A stretch of DNA of 64,000 bases from Streptomyces sp. ADI95-17 (GTDB taxonomy: Bacteria; Actinomycetota; Actinomycetes; Streptomycetales; Streptomycetaceae), in NCBI RefSeq assembly GCF_003846175.1, contig NZ_ML123048.1:513556-577555 (forward strand), in the 5' to 3' direction. How positions within the stretch are numbered: the stretch's first letter is position 1; every line of letters begins with the position of its first letter. This document shows positions 31,217 to 36,559 of the stretch, piece after piece. Under the pieces are notes generated by a model that saw only the letters and a list, made by a program, of their open reading frames with translations, had not been told where the DNA came from and did not search any database. The translations under genes and the position numbers were made by a program.

Positions 31217-32491
31217 CTACGGCAGCCAGAGGCAGGCGGCGGCCAGGAGCGCCACCGTCGCCCCGCCGGTGAGCACCGGCACATTGCCCAGCCAGGCGGC
31301 GAGCGCACCGCCACCGAGCGCACCGATCGGCACCGTGCCGATGAGCGCGGCCTGCAGGACCCCGGCAACGCGGCCCTGGAGTTCGGGCGGTGTGATCAGC
31401 TGCTGGGTGGTGGTCATGGAGATGGCCCAGACCGTGGCCGCGAGACCGAAGACGAACTGGTACGCCAGCAGCGCCGGGAAGCCCGGGCCCAGGGATGCGC
31501 CCGGGATCAGGAAGATCGCGAGGGCGGCCACCACGGCGCAGATCCGGGTCGCCGCGGCCAGCCCGATGGTGGCGGCGAACCGGCCGGCCAGCAGCACTCC
31601 GAGTACGGTGGCGACGCTGAACGCGGCGTAGACCGTCCCCAACTGCCAGGCCGGCAGCCCGAGATCGCGGGTGGCATAGAGCACGAAGAGCGCGTCGGCG
31701 GCTCCGCTGCCGAGATTGAACCCGGCCCCCGCGAGCACCTGTCGGCGCAGCACCCGCTCACCGCGCACCACTTCGAGTCCGGCACGCAGCGCGGCCGTTC
31801 GGGACTCCTTCTCGTGACGGGCGTGCCGGACCGGGGAGTTGAGTGTCGCGGGCAGACCGAGGAGCAGCAGCGCTTCGATCCCGTACGCCACGCAGGCGGC
31901 CAGCAGTGCGGTGGAGGCCCCGGTCAGGCCCACCAGGACACCGCCGAGGGCGGGGCCGCCGATCTGCCCGGTGGTACGGGCTCCGGTCAGCGCGGAGTTG
32001 GCGGAGAGCAGCTGCTCGGGGTGCACGACCCTGGGCAGGGCCGCCTGAAGGGCGACGGCCAGCATGGAGGTCAGTGCGCCGGACGCGGTGGCCACCAGGT
32101 ACAGCTGGGGCAGCCCGAGCCGTCCGAGGGCGTCCGCCACGGGTACGGAGCCGACGACCAGCACCTGAAGAACGGTGAGGAGCACGGTCAGTCCACGCAG
32201 CCGTGCCCGGTCGACCAGTACCCCGGCGAACGGGCTGAGCAGCGCACCGGGGAGGTAGCTCAGCGCCATCAGTGCGGAGGCGCCGAAGGGCCCCGCCCCC
32301 AGCCGGGTGACGGCGAGCAGCGCGAGGGCCAGGGTGGTGACCTGGCGCCCGACGGAGCTGGCGATCTGTTCCCCGCACAGCAGCGCGAACGGCCGGTGGC
32401 GCAGCAGCGCGCGCCCGGCTCGCCGCGGCTGTCCGGTGCCGGGGGGACGGGCACCGGCGGCAGGGGGCGGCGGGTCGGGCTGCTGCTCCAT
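31217..32491 (-). CDS. MFS exporter in the RiPP operon
   Basis: 424 aa, twelve helices, MFS_3/EntS type: FALLCGEQIASSVGRQVTTLALALLAV at the start, LSPFAGVLVDRARLRGL as loop 2-3 motif, and a repeat in the second half (LLAGRFAATIGLAAATRI). Such pumps export siderophores, antibiotics and modified peptides. It begins 5 bp past the DUF5825-type gene, with a weak ribosome site of its own, so it is the last gene of the precursor/radical SAM operon and the likely exporter or self-resistance pump for its product. Confidence 0.83.
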   Translation of the reverse strand: MEQQPDPPPPAAGARPPGTGQPRRAGRALLRHRPFALLCGEQIASSVGRQVTTLALALLAVTRLGAGPFGASALMALSYLPGALLSPFAGVLVDRARLRGLTVLLTVLQVLVVGSVPVADALGRLGLPQLYLVATASGALTSMLAVALQAALPRVVHPEQLLSANSALTGARTTGQIGGPALGGVLVGLTGASTALLAACVAYGIEALLLLGLPATLNSPVRHARHEKESRTAALRAGLEVVRGERVLRRQVLAGAGFNLGSGAADALFVLYATRDLGLPAWQLGTVYAAFSVATVLGVLLAGRFAATIGLAAATRICAVVAALAIFLIPGASLGPGFPALLAYQFVFGLAATVWAISMTTTQQLITPPELQGRVAGVLQAALIGTVPIGALGGGALAAWLGNVPVLTGGATVALLAAACLWLP

Positions 32492-32496
32492 CCCGT

Positions 32497-33102
32497 TCAG
32501 ATGTCGGTGCAGGGGACGGGCCACCGGCGGATGCGCGGCGGCAGGGCCACCGCCCAGCCGTCGGTCACCCGGGCGAGGCGCTCGGCCGCCAGCAGGTCCA
32601 CCGCTTCCCGGCCGACGGCGTCCAGCGCGGCCACGGCGGTGGGGTCCTGGACGGTGCGGAAGGCGGCGAGCAGATCGGGATCGTCGATCGTGAAGCGGGC
32701 CGCGGCCGACGGCTCCCGGCGGTCCATGACGGTGACGAAGTCCGGTCCGCGCCGGTGGTAGAGCTGTCCGTAGGCGTGGCGCTCCCGCCAGGTGGTGAGC
32801 TCCGCCGGTTCGCCGGGCAGGGGGCCGGGGGCCGGCAGGTGGCGCAGCAGACCGGCCGTCCCGGCCACCTCGTGCGCGGGCCCGGTGAACAGCGGGTCGT
32901 CGGTCGCCGGAAGCCAGCGCACCACGAGGTCGTGGCTCTGGCACTCGCGCAGGAACCGGACCGCTTCCGCCGCCGGGCGGCCGCCCGCCCCCAGCCGCAG
33001 CGGTTCGTCGACCGTCACCAGCCGTCCGCGGATCCGGTGCGGCACCCACCCGGCCGGCAGGGCGGGCGCGGTGCGGGTCGGGGGTGCGGGCAGGGGGCTC
33101 AT
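32497..33102 (-). CDS. DUF5825-type partner of a RiPP radical SAM enzyme
   Basis: 201 aa. Contains VRFLRECQSHDLVVRWLP and LPGEPAELTTWRERHAYGQLYHRRGPDFVTVMDRRE, and ends LPPRIRRWPVPC. I recognise it as the DUF5825 family that travels with RiPP-maturing radical SAM C-methyltransferases in Streptomyces; this assignment is from memory of the family, not a search. The biochemical role is unknown; a precursor-binding or accessory function is an inference. Its ATG overlaps the radical SAM stop (ATGA at 33099-33102), implying tight stoichiometric coupling. Confidence 0.72.
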   Translation of the reverse strand: MSPLPAPPTRTAPALPAGWVPHRIRGRLVTVDEPLRLGAGGRPAAEAVRFLRECQSHDLVVRWLPATDDPLFTGPAHEVAGTAGLLRHLPAPGPLPGEPAELTTWRERHAYGQLYHRRGPDFVTVMDRREPSAAARFTIDDPDLLAAFRTVQDPTAVAALDAVGREAVDLLAAERLARVTDGWAVALPPRIRRWPVPCTDI

Positions 33103-35015
33103 CCGGCGGCCTTCTCTCCGTTGTCCGGCGTGCCCGATGCCCCGCCGGCCGTCCCGTCCGGCGCCTGGGCGCGCTCGACCGACCGGACCGGTACGTGCCA
33201 GGTGGGCAGCGACACGTAGGAGCGCCCGTCGTCGAAGAGGAGTCCCAGCGCGACCGTTTCGCGGAGCCACGCGTCCAGCTCCGCTCCGGTCGGCGGGTCC
33301 CCGTCGGCCGTGAGCAGCCGGTGCAGTGCGCTCCGGGTGCGGCCCGCTTCCAGGTGGCGCAGGGCGGCGGCGTGCCAGCCGGTCAGCCGGTGGGTGCGGC
33401 GCGGCCAGCCGTGGCGCCGGTCGTGGACGAGGAGCGTCTCGTCGCCGGTGGGCTGTTCCAGGACCAGGGTCGAGGCGGGATGGCCGGTGTACCAGTCGCG
33501 GGCCGCGGCCTTCAGCCGCGCCTCGGTCCCGCCGCCGATCCCGGCGGGCGGGGTGTCGAAGAGGTAGACCAGATCGGCCAGTTGGTCCTCGGGCAGGTCG
33601 TAGACATGGCGGTACATCTCGGCGGGACGGCGTTGCGGAAAGCCGAGCGCGGGGTTGGCGAAGTTGGGGCTGAACCGCTCCAGTTGGATGCGGTGGGCGC
33701 CGCCGGGCGGCTGGAGGTGGACGAGCGCCGGCATCTGGTCGATGACGGAGGCGTAGTCCTGGTCGGTCTCCCCGGGGAATCCGTACAGGTAGTTCCAGGA
33801 GCAGGTGAGCGAGTGGTTCTCGCACTCGCGCAGGGTCCGGATGTTGCGGGAGCCGCTGACGCCCTTGTCCATGAGGTCCAGGGCCCTGTTGCTGAGGCTC
33901 TCGATGCCGGGCTGGATGTGGACCGAGCCGGCGCGGGCGAGCAGTTCCAGTTGCTCGGCGGTGAGGTTGGACTTGACCTCGTAGTGCATGCGCAGGTCCC
34001 AGCGGCTCTCGGCGGCGAGCGGGAGGAAGTCCTTGAAGTAAGCCATGTCGATGATGTTGTCGACGGTGACGATGTCCAGGATGCGGTGACGCCGGACCAG
34101 GCGGTCGACCTCGTCCCAGAGCCGGTTTCCGGGTTTGGCCCGGAAAGTCATCGCCGAGCCGTTGAGCCCGCAGAAGGTGCAGTGGTGCTTCTCGCCCCAC
34201 CAGCAGCCCCGGGCCCCCTCCACCACCAGTTTCGGGTGGACGTACTCGGCGACCGGGGAGGCGTCGACGGCCTGCTGCCAGAGGTCGTAGTCGGGCGAGG
34301 GGATGTCGGCGGGTGCGACGGTGCGCCGGGACTCCTCGTTGGCGCGCGACTCCTGCCCGTCCCACCAGCAGAGTCCGGGGACGTCGGCGGGCGCGGTGCC
34401 CGCGTCGATGTGGGTGAGCAGGGCGGGCAGGGCGTACTCCCCCTCGCCGCGCACCACATGGTCGACGAAGCGGTGGTTGCGGTGCAGTGCGTGGCCCATC
34501 GGGCCGTCGCAGTTGCTTCCGCCGAACACCACGGTCAGTCCGGGGCGGCGCCGTTTGAGTTCCGCCGCGAGCGCCAGTGAGGAGACGTTCTGCATGAACG
34601 TGGTGGTGAAGCCCACGACATCGGGGGCCTCGTCGAGTATCGCGTCCGCGCTCTCCTCGATGAACTCCGCCGCGTGGACCCGCATCGCGGTCGCGGTGGA
34701 GATGTCGGTCCCGCGCCGTGCGGCGTACTCCTTGAGCTGCGCCACACCCCATTCGGGGTCGTTGTACAGGACGCCGGAGAACACCCAGTCCCCGAGTCCG
34801 TCAAAGATCGATTCGCTGCCGACCGCGACATGGTCACCGGGGCGCAGCGCCCCCTTCGAGCGTTCCAGCAGGAATTCCGCCCAGCGCAGGGAGCCGTGGA
34901 ACTCGCGCACCTCGTCGTCCGGCCGGGTCCGGTCCAGCAGCGCGTGCAGCAGCCCCACCTGGAGCGAGGGGAGTTCGATCGGCTGCCAGGGCATGGTCAC
35001 CAGATGTATTCGCAC
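33099..35015 (-). CDS. B12-dependent radical SAM RiPP C-methyltransferase
   Basis: 638 aa. Residues about 1-200 form a cobalamin-binding Rossmann domain (VGFTTTFMQNVSSLALAAELKRR, VVFGGSNCDG). The radical SAM cluster motif is C271-x7-C279-x2-C282 (GCWWGEKHHCTFCG), a long spacing typical of the RiPP-maturation subgroup (rSAM_ocin type). The barrel continues through VDNIIDMAYF and IQPGIESLSNRAL. A C-terminal domain (about 480-638) may bind substrate. It should add methyl groups to unactivated carbons of a peptide using methylcobalamin and SAM. GTG 35015 has GGGAGG 5 nt upstream. Directly downstream of the 27-aa peptide gene. Confidence 0.9.
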   Translation of the reverse strand: MRIHLVTMPWQPIELPSLQVGLLHALLDRTRPDDEVREFHGSLRWAEFLLERSKGALRPGDHVAVGSESIFDGLGDWVFSGVLYNDPEWGVAQLKEYAARRGTDISTATAMRVHAAEFIEESADAILDEAPDVVGFTTTFMQNVSSLALAAELKRRRPGLTVVFGGSNCDGPMGHALHRNHRFVDHVVRGEGEYALPALLTHIDAGTAPADVPGLCWWDGQESRANEESRRTVAPADIPSPDYDLWQQAVDASPVAEYVHPKLVVEGARGCWWGEKHHCTFCGLNGSAMTFRAKPGNRLWDEVDRLVRRHRILDIVTVDNIIDMAYFKDFLPLAAESRWDLRMHYEVKSNLTAEQLELLARAGSVHIQPGIESLSNRALDLMDKGVSGSRNIRTLRECENHSLTCSWNYLYGFPGETDQDYASVIDQMPALVHLQPPGGAHRIQLERFSPNFANPALGFPQRRPAEMYRHVYDLPEDQLADLVYLFDTPPAGIGGGTEARLKAAARDWYTGHPASTLVLEQPTGDETLLVHDRRHGWPRRTHRLTGWHAAALRHLEAGRTRSALHRLLTADGDPPTGAELDAWLRETVALGLLFDDGRSYVSLPTWHVPVRSVERAQAPDGTAGGASGTPDNGEKAAG

Positions 35016-35035
35016 TGAGCCTCCCACGGCACGGT

Positions 35036-35066
35036 GGCGGACGCCGGGCCGCGCCCGGCGTCCGCC
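35036..35066 (-). terminator. Attenuator-like hairpin between precursor peptide and radical SAM genes
   Basis: Perfect 14-bp arms ggcggacgccgggc (35036-35049) and gcccggcgtccgcc (35053-35066) with a 3-nt loop. Located between the peptide stop (35105) and the methyltransferase start (35015). Partial termination here would give more precursor than enzyme transcript, a common RiPP arrangement, or protect the peptide mRNA 3' end. Confidence 0.7.
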
Positions 35067-35104
35067 CTTCTCGTCGCTGTCCGGCCGGACCGGAGCATTG
35101 CGGT

Positions 35105-35188
35105 TCAGCGCGTCGGACGTTTCTCGATCGTCTGCCGTTCGCGGTTCTTCGCTTCTTCCTCGCGGACCACGACCTTCTTGATCTCCAT
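35105..35188 (-). CDS. Candidate RiPP precursor peptide, 27 aa
   Basis: Begins MEIKKVVVREEEAK, ends TIEKRPTR, 27 residues, very hydrophilic: eleven Lys/Arg and six Glu around a VVV patch, no Cys, Ser, Gly or aromatic residue. ATG 35188 is preceded by GGGGAGG at 5-6 nt, one of the strongest ribosome sites in the window, which argues that the small ORF is real. It lies 89 bp upstream of a peptide-type radical SAM methyltransferase on the same strand, with a hairpin between. There is no obvious leader/core boundary. Possible methylation sites include the Val patch, Gln, Thr, Ile or Arg residues. I do not recognise it as a known class. Confidence 0.72.
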   Translation of the reverse strand: MEIKKVVVREEEAKNRERQTIEKRPTR

Positions 35189-35225
35189 GTGCCCCTCCCC
35201 TCGGCGTTCGGTCTCAAGTCCGTTG

Positions 35226-35255
35226 ACGTTAGGTCGCGTTGTGACGCAGTGGCAA
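35226..35255 (-). promoter_or_regulatory. Possible promoter of the RiPP operon
   Basis: On the minus strand TTGCCA (35250-35255), 17-18 bp, then CTAACG/TAACGT (35226-35232), about 38 bp before the precursor ATG. A fair sigma-70/HrdB-type match. Confidence 0.4.
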
Positions 35256-35336
35256 GGGTGCCTGCTGGGGCCGGTGGGGCGTACTGGGCGTTCCGGGGCC
35301 GTGGCCGGCCGGGGACCGATCGCTATGCTGCGTGCC

Positions 35337-35398: not shown

Positions 35399-36559
35399 AT
35401 GCGGGAGCCGGTTGAACTCAGGCGGCAGCGGATCCTGTCGGTGGTGGAGTCGCGCGGCGCCGTCAAGGTCAGCGCCCTCGCGGCCGAGCTCGACGTCTCG
35501 GTGGTCACGGTCCGGCGGGACGTGGAGGAGCTGGCCCGGGAGGGGCGGCTGCGCCGCGGGCACGGGGTGGCCCGTCCGGTACGGGAGCCGGTCCCGACCG
35601 CCGCGGTCCCGGCGGCCCGGGGCAAGGAGCCGGGCGGGGACGCCGGGGCGGTCGCCCTGGTCGTCCCGGAGCGGCACACGTACCTGTACGAGACCCTGCA
35701 CGGCGCCCGCTCCGTCCTGGAGGAGTCCGGGATCCGGATCGCCCTGCACATCGCGCCGCCGTCGGCCGGTGCCGAACGTCCGCTGGTGGAGCGGGCGCTG
35801 GCGGACGGGGCGCGCGGGTTGCTGATCGCGCCGCGCTGGCGCAGCGCCCGCTCGGAGGAGCTGGACTACGGCTGGCTCGCGAACGTGGGGGTGCCGACCG
35901 TGCTGATGGAGCGGCGGCCCCGGCCGGGCAGCGCGCTGCACGCCCTGGACTCCGTCTGTTCCGACCACTGGTACGGGATCCATCTCGCCGTGGACCATCT
36001 GGTGTCGCTGGGGCATCGCCGGATCGTGCTGGCCGCCCGGGACGACAGTCCGACGGCGCGCAGCATCCGTACCGCGTTCGCCGAGATCGCGGCGGCCCGT
36101 CCGGAGGTGGCGCAGTGGTCGGTGGTGCTGAGTTCCTCGCAGGCCGTACCGGGCCCGGACACCCCCGCCCCGGCGGGGGCCCGCGGGCCCGCCGGGGCGG
36201 GCGACGGCCGTGCCGTGCTCGACCTCGCCGCGCTGCTGCGGGAGCAGGGCGTGACGGGCGCCGTGCTGCACGGCGACGTGGACGCGCTGATGCTGGTGCA
36301 GCGGCTGGCGGAGAGCGGTGTCGAGGTGCCCCGGGACTGTTCGGTGGTGGCGTACGACGATGTGGTCGCGGCGCTCGGCAGCCCGCCGCTGACGGCGGTG
36401 GCGCCGCCGAAGGCGGAGATCGGACGGGCGGCCGCCGAACTGCTGCTCCACCGGCTGTCGGGCGGAGCGGGCGCGAGCGGTCCGGTGCGCCGCACGGAGC
36501 TGCTGCCCACGCTGAAGGTGCGTGGATCGGCCCAGGAGCCGCCCCGCTCCATCGACTGA
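35399..36559 (+). CDS. Transcriptional regulator: DeoR-type HTH with LacI-type sensor
   Basis: 386 aa. Residues 1-60 are a DeoR-like winged helix (ELRRQRILSVVESRGAVKVSALAAELDVSVVTVRRDVEELAREGRLRRGHG). From about 80 a periplasmic-binding-like LacI sensor domain follows (VALVVPERHTYLYETLHGAR, HLAVDHLVSLGHRRIVLA, VPRDCSVVAYDDV). DNA-binding and sensor modules thus come from different families. ATG 35399 has gaggggg 8 nt upstream. It reads into the ABC importer operon and should be its sugar-responsive repressor. It is divergent from the RiPP precursor, so shared control is possible. Confidence 0.87.
   Translation: MREPVELRRQRILSVVESRGAVKVSALAAELDVSVVTVRRDVEELAREGRLRRGHGVARPVREPVPTAAVPAARGKEPGGDAGAVALVVPERHTYLYETLHGARSVLEESGIRIALHIAPPSAGAERPLVERALADGARGLLIAPRWRSARSEELDYGWLANVGVPTVLMERRPRPGSALHALDSVCSDHWYGIHLAVDHLVSLGHRRIVLAARDDSPTARSIRTAFAEIAAARPEVAQWSVVLSSSQAVPGPDTPAPAGARGPAGAGDGRAVLDLAALLREQGVTGAVLHGDVDALMLVQRLAESGVEVPRDCSVVAYDDVVAALGSPPLTAVAPPKAEIGRAAAELLLHRLSGGAGASGPVRRTELLPTLKVRGSAQEPPRSID

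Follow-up and report, generated by a model that had tools for sequence, protein, structure and literature searches.

The 64,000-nucleotide stretch of Streptomyces sp. ADI95-17 DNA studied here (assembly GCF_003846175.1, contig NZ_ML123048.1, positions 513,556 to 577,555 of the forward strand), termed the window, contains a compact candidate operon for a ribosomally synthesized and post-translationally modified peptide (RiPP). On the minus strand, from 35188 to 31217, a 27-codon open reading frame (ORF) is followed by the genes for a B12-binding radical S-adenosylmethionine (radical SAM) enzyme, a DUF5825 protein and a major facilitator superfamily (MFS) transporter. This one-strand order, the 4-base overlap (ATGA) of the DUF5825 and radical SAM genes and a hairpin, all described in the original prediction, were found in the sequence. 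Searching with the radical SAM protein gave 521 relatives, the best 80 of which were used for the locus analysis; the 35 loci with a radical SAM identity of at least 70% (L002-L034, L036 and L037) are termed the near clade. The operon comprises the following features, where RRE denotes a RiPP recognition element.

35105..35188, minus strand: precursor peptide gene of 27 codons (MEIKKVVVREEEAKNRERQTIEKRPTR, then stop), from translation; its family is present in 32 of the 35 near-clade loci.
35159..35188, minus strand: proposed mini-leader, residues 1-10 (MEIKKVVVRE), from an N-terminal pattern common to precursors with unrelated downstream parts.
35108..35158, minus strand: proposed core, residues 11-27, with an aliphatic residue and then EKRP, from the alignment; putative site of modification.
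35189..35200, minus strand: ribosome-binding site of the precursor gene (GGGGAGGGGCAC), from the sequence; GGGAGGG is invariant across six sequences.
35036..35066, minus strand: 14-bp GC hairpin in the gap between the precursor and radical SAM genes, with no T run, from folding; possible processing or attenuation element.
33099..35015, minus strand: B12-dependent radical SAM enzyme (TIGR03975), 638 aa, GTG start, from Pfam and NCBIfam.
34170..34205, minus strand: [4Fe-4S] motif CWWGEKHHCTFC (C-x7-C-x2-C), from the sequence.
33222..33473, minus strand: predicted RRE-like winged-helix domain at the radical SAM C-terminus, approximately residues 515-598, from an AlphaFold model and VIA-align.
32497..33102, minus strand: DUF5825 partner (PF19142), whose C-terminal half shares homology with the C-terminal domain of the radical SAM enzyme.
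31217..32491, minus strand: MFS transporter, an optional member, from Pfam and NCBIfam; present in 18 of the 35 near-clade loci.

The 27-codon ORF is very probably a real gene, as judged from its conservation. A GGAGG-type ribosome site lies immediately 5´ of the ATG, and comparison of the window with its five closest loci (L002, L003, L004, L010 and L034) shows an identical peptide and only synonymous codon changes. The eight distinct variable bases of the ORF in these six sequences all fall at third codon positions (chance approximately 1.5e-4, at 1/3 per base and with independence assumed); the earlier description of the ORF as well initiated is consistent with the ribosome site. In the 32 near-clade loci with a precursor of the window family, the gene lies directly upstream of the radical SAM gene. 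The original prediction had named conservation beside homologous radical SAM and DUF5825 genes as one point on which it should stand or fall, and on this point it stands. A peptide model, searched at E up to 1 and without filters, matched 48 of 122 loci with one match each, the L035 match being weak (10 bits); this set includes the window itself (L147) and five pairs that are identical at the radical SAM, each pair probably representing a single genome. In the proposed search of other Streptomyces, the model matched 15 of 392 genomes (13 strongly; G226 weakly, at the operon; G019 elsewhere), and 14 of the 15 matches adjoin enzyme genes, ten with a near-clade DUF5825 gene approximately 1.8-2.0 kb away and four (G387, G236, G325 and G362) with a radical SAM gene directly downstream, as found by reading the DNA. 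A DUF5825 protein of at least 57% identity occurs in 13 of 295 genomes, and all 13 have a precursor of the window family: ten were found by the model and three (G268, G256 and G097) by reading the upstream DNA. These three are N-extended, with the form KPEIKKVAV(R/K)DE...(D/E)KRP(S/A)S. The precursor has no Pfam or NCBIfam match, and the literature text searched for EIKKVVV, EKRPTR and MEIKKVVVREEE contained none of them; DUF5825 was mentioned in two texts, a preprint and the article published from it. The precursor family is distinct, and no description of it was found in the literature and family databases searched.

The near-clade peptides are conserved at both ends. They start with M-[ED]-I-[KR]-K-[VTI]-[VA]-[VI]-[RK]-[ED], apart from an N-extended group around L005, one member of which has Leu in place of Ile, and they end with [IVT]-[ILMV]-[ED]-K-R-P and a few further residues. 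The dipeptide that precedes [ED]KRP is IL, TI, VM, VL or IV in all 33 distinct near-clade peptides. The absence of Cys and Ser, to which attention had been drawn, holds for the window peptide but not for the family, in which Ser occurs in 21 and Cys in one of the 33 peptides. In the wider clade, the N-terminus stays similar and the downstream part changes completely. The L035 precursor is MEIKKVAVRAQTKAANKYSVGTTRRVNDNTKR; those of L039 and L041 begin MKIKKV(A/S)IKKVTHG(S/T)CKY; and that of L043 begins MAIKRVEIKN. The L038 precursor (L038:5724-5921) combines MPVDKVVLK with six PMIRSAAT-type copies, and the L131 precursor, upstream of its radical SAM gene, combines MELKKTITY with several VRVASSP-type repeats. 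The start pattern M-x-[ILV]-[KRD]-[KR]-[VTI]-x-[ILVT], which was devised after the sequences had been seen, occurs in 23 of 3155 small ORFs bearing a ribosome site in 80 loci, 22 of these matches lying at the precursor site. On this sequence comparison, the N-terminal approximately 10 residues, including VVV, most likely form a short leader, and the earlier statement that the peptide has no recognisable leader does not hold, since this segment is similar across loci with unrelated downstream parts.

The VVV patch could conversely be the site of modification, with the charged C-terminal part acting as a follower peptide. PoyC, which also has the C-x7-C-x2-C motif, methylates Ile and Val according to PMC11285071, and in all 33 distinct near-clade peptides position 6 is V/T/I, position 7 V/A and position 8 V/I. 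This arrangement is nevertheless unlikely. The N-terminal residues are the part common across the wider clade, and L038 and L131 each have a single N-terminal segment and a repeated C-terminal segment, as for one leader with repeated cores, which favors a recognition strand over a modified site for the VVV patch. A leader at the N-terminus and a core at the C-terminus is the preferred division of the putative substrate.

Several features accompany these variant precursors. The repeat precursors of L038 and L131 adjoin a TIGR03975-type enzyme and DUF5825, and cytochrome P450 and Asp/Asn hydroxylase genes lie upstream in L038. The L015 and L129 precursors are N-extended, with a PEIK unit triplicated in the leader (KPEIKPEIKPEIKKVAV). 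Homologous proteins of 234-258 aa are encoded just upstream of the precursor at L035:5126-5839, L039:5117-5821, L041:5009-5785 and L043:5089-5793; they share 36-95% identity, three were scanned without a Pfam match, and by eye they appear ferritin-type diiron-like.

The hairpin (35066 to 35036) consists of 14 base pairs closed by a 3-base loop, and a stem forms at its position in all six of the closest sequences folded. A short ORF located directly upstream of the radical SAM gene, with a GC hairpin after it in the window group, might also be a regulatory leader peptide, which would act on the radical SAM gene as an attenuator via the hairpin and would not be a substrate. Such a role is very unlikely. 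No T run follows the hairpin, and the closest six sequences keep the amino acids of the ORF but not its codons. Only 2 bases separate the end of the ORF from the radical SAM start in L016-type loci, so that the hairpin is absent there, and the peptide is still conserved. Related operons also hold repeat-bearing ORFs at the precursor position. A RiPP precursor gene is therefore the preferred assignment for the ORF.

The radical SAM protein contains B12-binding and Radical_SAM Pfam domains and scores 544 bits against the 281.85 cut-off of TIGR03975 (NCBIfam), a family named RiPP maturation radical SAM C-methyltransferase. It has one credible sequence relative in the PDB, 9ccb (E 3.3e-6). The C-x7-C-x2-C motif highlighted in the original prediction is present in the window enzyme, but it occurs in all 34 homologous enzymes checked and is thus not special to this operon. 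Plasmids of Rhizobium, Mesorhizobium and Sinorhizobium also encode homologous enzymes (26 of 54 matching records, approximately 31-35% identity among the matches listed).

The C-terminal domain of the radical SAM enzyme is modeled with a strand-strand-strand-helix-helix-helix-wing order (predicted local distance difference test score, pLDDT, 86.7). In a VIA-align comparison restricted to Foldseek's candidates, the first two ranks are occupied by the leader-bound lasso-peptide RRE TbiB1 (5v1v, Z 9.2 over 79 residues; 5v1u, Z 9.1 over 77 residues), and the next rows are at 8.1. Searches of 24 radical SAM C-terminal regions gave weak Pfam matches to PqqD (three regions at E up to 5, best E 0.057) and to DUF5825 (three regions, best E 0.0057). 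No RRE model in Pfam or NCBIfam matched the window radical SAM protein at E <=0.1.

The DUF5825 protein (PF19142, E 7.7e-22; model pLDDT 92.5) has no credible relative by sequence in the PDB, the search of which gave one coat protein at E 0.28. In a mixed alignment set, DUF5825 rows fell on the radical SAM C-terminal part, and the homology was therefore tested with hhalign and holds between the C-terminal half of DUF5825 and the C-terminal domain of the radical SAM (probability 96.3, E 1.7e-9, 103 columns). From the VIA-align fold match of the model and this profile comparison, an RRE appears to be built into the radical SAM enzyme itself, and DUF5825 to contain a homologue of it. The domain shares its predicted winged-helix fold with the RREs TbiB1 (lasso peptide) and PqqD; it differs from them in its location at the radical SAM C-terminus and in having a homologous copy in DUF5825.

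The two proteins are also naturally fused in some loci. In the near clade, DUF5825 is separate in 27 loci, fused to the radical SAM in six (L002, L006, L009, L011, L028 and L033) and missing from two (L010 and L037). Full DUF5825 fusions are found in L002 (851 aa) and in the Myxococcus locus L046 (875 aa), and the groups L006/L009/L011/L145 and L028/L033 contain only the DUF5825 C-terminal half. In L033 the radical SAM frame is broken near its start, and a single ORF is called only for the fused C-terminal part.

We consider it probable that these genes form a RiPP operon in which a mini-leader is bound by the RRE-like domain, the B12-radical SAM enzyme C-methylates the C-terminal part of the peptide and the MFS protein exports the product. 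The 27-codon gene would encode the precursor, and MEIKKVVVRE would pair as a β-strand with the winged-helix domain at the radical SAM C-terminus and possibly also with the homologous DUF5825 domain. The enzyme, with its cobalamin domain and C-x7-C-x2-C cluster, would then C-methylate at least one residue in the C-terminal part. C-methylation of unactivated carbons had been put forward at the outset as the likely chemistry, and it agrees with the TIGR03975 name and with clavusporin biosynthesis, where a B12-radical SAM/DUF5825 pair C-methylates amino acids, as described in PMC12257519. By analogy with this family name, the clavusporin pair and PoyC, which methylates Ile and Val, the invariantly hydrophobic residue just before EKRP is preferred as the most likely methylation site; Lys, Arg or Pro of EKRP are further candidates. 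The MFS protein would export the product in the window's lineage. An MFS gene is indeed part of the window operon, as predicted, but it is optional, since 17 of the 35 near-clade loci have no MFS gene of the window kind.

Several observations weigh against this interpretation. Constraint across the whole clade is moderate: the mean ratio of nonsynonymous to synonymous divergence (dN/dS) is approximately 0.4 (0.21/0.52) in an 84-base set and 0.65 (0.21/0.33) in an 87-base set, each comprising equal-length sequences without gaps, with identical DNA counted once and L148 (PELKK, off-pattern) dropped. L030 and L032, a sister pair in the radical SAM tree, keep the radical SAM and DUF5825 genes with no precursor in the locus, and their genomes gave no precursor at E up to 1 (150 of 185 and 150 of 203 candidates scored, with no positive control). 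The L037 radical SAM is truncated, and the G019 match (E 0.007) lies far from the DUF5825 gene of that genome. Many DNA-binding winged helices reach Z 7-8 in the VIA-align comparison of the radical SAM C-terminal domain; Foldseek alone places TbiB1 36th (E 0.69), behind DNA-binding winged helices, and finds nothing below E 0.001 for the radical SAM C-terminal model or the DUF5825 model. The C-terminal region of the window's own radical SAM matches neither PqqD nor DUF5825 in Pfam, and in VIA-align the scores of the lasso RREs with DUF5825 are no higher than Z 3.4 and 3.3, level with unrelated rows. DUF5825 may not be essential, because L010 lacks it: the MFS gene there directly overlaps the radical SAM end (L010:7875-7905) and the precursor is intact. 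A Pfam scan of ten window neighbor genes, one of which has no Pfam match at all, gave no peptidase match. Translation, modification and product are predicted from the sequence.

The clavusporin pathway is the closest known counterpart. Both systems have a TIGR03975 B12-radical SAM gene beside DUF5825, a short precursor gene just upstream and an MFS gene nearby. Clavusporins are reportedly surfactants, going by the title of a study by Zhang, Li, Overton and Seyedsayamdost (doi 10.1038/s41589-025-01882-8). C-methylation by an enzyme pair of this kind is not new, being known from clavusporin biosynthesis. The S. clavuligerus locus L199, which from its name would be the clavusporin locus, contains MFS, alpha/beta hydrolase, precursor (MQKDVIHNDPLAGDEENRKPSVGITITVPFRNAEDADED), radical SAM and DUF5825 genes; the precursor was read from the DNA and is absent from the PLSDB gene table, which is itself incomplete. 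The S. clavuligerus radical SAM is 45.6% identical to that of the window, and with an enzyme pair of the same kind the window operon might be thought to make clavusporin proper. This is very improbable. The radical SAM tree (quick method, with support only from the Shimodaira-Hasegawa-like approximate likelihood ratio test, SH-aLRT; constructed without S. clavuligerus, L037 and L133, the latter two being short) separates the window's clade from an NDP-leader-dominated clade, the 45 rows of which are exactly the 45 best tree-row matches of the S. clavuligerus enzyme. Where a precursor was recognised in that clade, it mostly has an M(Q/R)K..NDP-type leader, and many have a hydrophobic strand-like core. 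The S. clavuligerus precursor joins an MQKD..NDP leader to a hydrophobic ITITV-type core, whereas the window precursor is charged, with a proposed MEIKK leader and EKRP core, and has neither an NDP-type leader nor a hydrophobic strand-like core. A Peptidase_S9 gene is present in all four clavusporin-type loci scanned, compared with none of the ten window neighbor genes, which agrees with the identification of MpcP as a prolyl oligopeptidase in PMC12951456. The operon is thus an undescribed branch of a known pathway kind, set apart by a peptide that differs and is unusually rich in charge, since the enzyme pair is alike and the tree clade and precursor family are distinct. The original prediction placed the precursor outside familiar RiPP classes; the precursor is indeed unlike that of clavusporin, but the kind of system is partly familiar through its clavusporin-type enzyme pair.

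Other B12-radical SAM systems differ further. PoyC shares with the window enzyme the B12-radical SAM C-methyltransferase type, the C-x7-C-x2-C motif and a RiPP precursor as substrate, the last being putative in the window. The substrate of PoyC is a large proteusin precursor on which many other maturases also act, and proteusins have a long nitrile-hydratase-like leader. In contrast, the window has one modifying enzyme with DUF5825, and its whole precursor comprises 27 aa, so that no leader of the proteusin (polytheonamide) type is present. YHxYxY biphenomycin-like clusters have a second B12-radical SAM with DUF5825, and also a multinuclear non-heme iron-dependent oxidase (MNIO) and a further B12-radical SAM, according to PMC12257519. 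The window shares with them the B12-radical SAM/DUF5825 pair; neither an MNIO nor a further B12-radical SAM is found among the ten neighbor genes scanned.

Upstream of the precursor, a block at 35205-35260 (minus strand), ending CCTAACGTCAACGGACTTGAG, is strongly conserved in the six closest loci and may hold the promoter. The upstream alignment of these loci includes a conserved TTGC..TAACGT stretch, and a scan for sigma-70 promoters gave no match upstream of the precursor. A cobalamin riboswitch or other known RNA was considered and rejected, as at the Rfam gathering thresholds the window matched two tRNAs and nothing else. A DeoR-type regulator gene (35399-36559, plus strand) is directed away from the operon, and on the far side of the MFS gene is a gene for an amino-acid permease.

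The window's genome is 10.03 Mb in size, and its closest relatives at the operon locus are Streptomyces, according to the radical SAM protein scan. The operon moves: near-clade operons occupy several chromosomal sites, often next to the core gene Pnkp, and one is located on a 1.7 Mb linear plasmid (NZ_CP108366). A link to RNA repair, considered with Pnkp beside the operon in 18 and Hen1 in 16 of the 38 loci L002-L039, was rejected. Pnkp is present in 111 of 121 Streptomyces genomes, and the radical SAM gene adjoins 5 of the 30 Pnkp loci read among these 111; the Pnkp site therefore looks like an insertion neighborhood.

TIGR03975/DUF5825 operons outside the clavusporin clade may tentatively be regarded as a mini-leader RiPP family, the window type of which possibly yields a C-methylated peptide that acts within the cell without being cleaved. 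Uncleaved intracellular use is conceivable because no linked protease was found among the ten genes and because the window-kind MFS gene is missing from nearly half of the near clade. If this proposal, which is less likely than the mechanism itself, is true, a strand of approximately 10 residues, read by an RRE built into the enzyme and copied in DUF5825, would let the same enzyme type take unrelated cores, ranging from a single charged EKRP peptide up to precursors with six repeat copies. Small precursors of the 27-codon kind are easily missed in annotation. The family would also offer a simple system for methylating unactivated peptide carbons, with a short strand-type leader, an in-enzyme domain and natural radical SAM-DUF5825 fusions, and the repeat-bearing precursors would be good test substrates. 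The role of DUF5825 as a second copy of the enzyme's RRE-like domain is a directly testable proposal.

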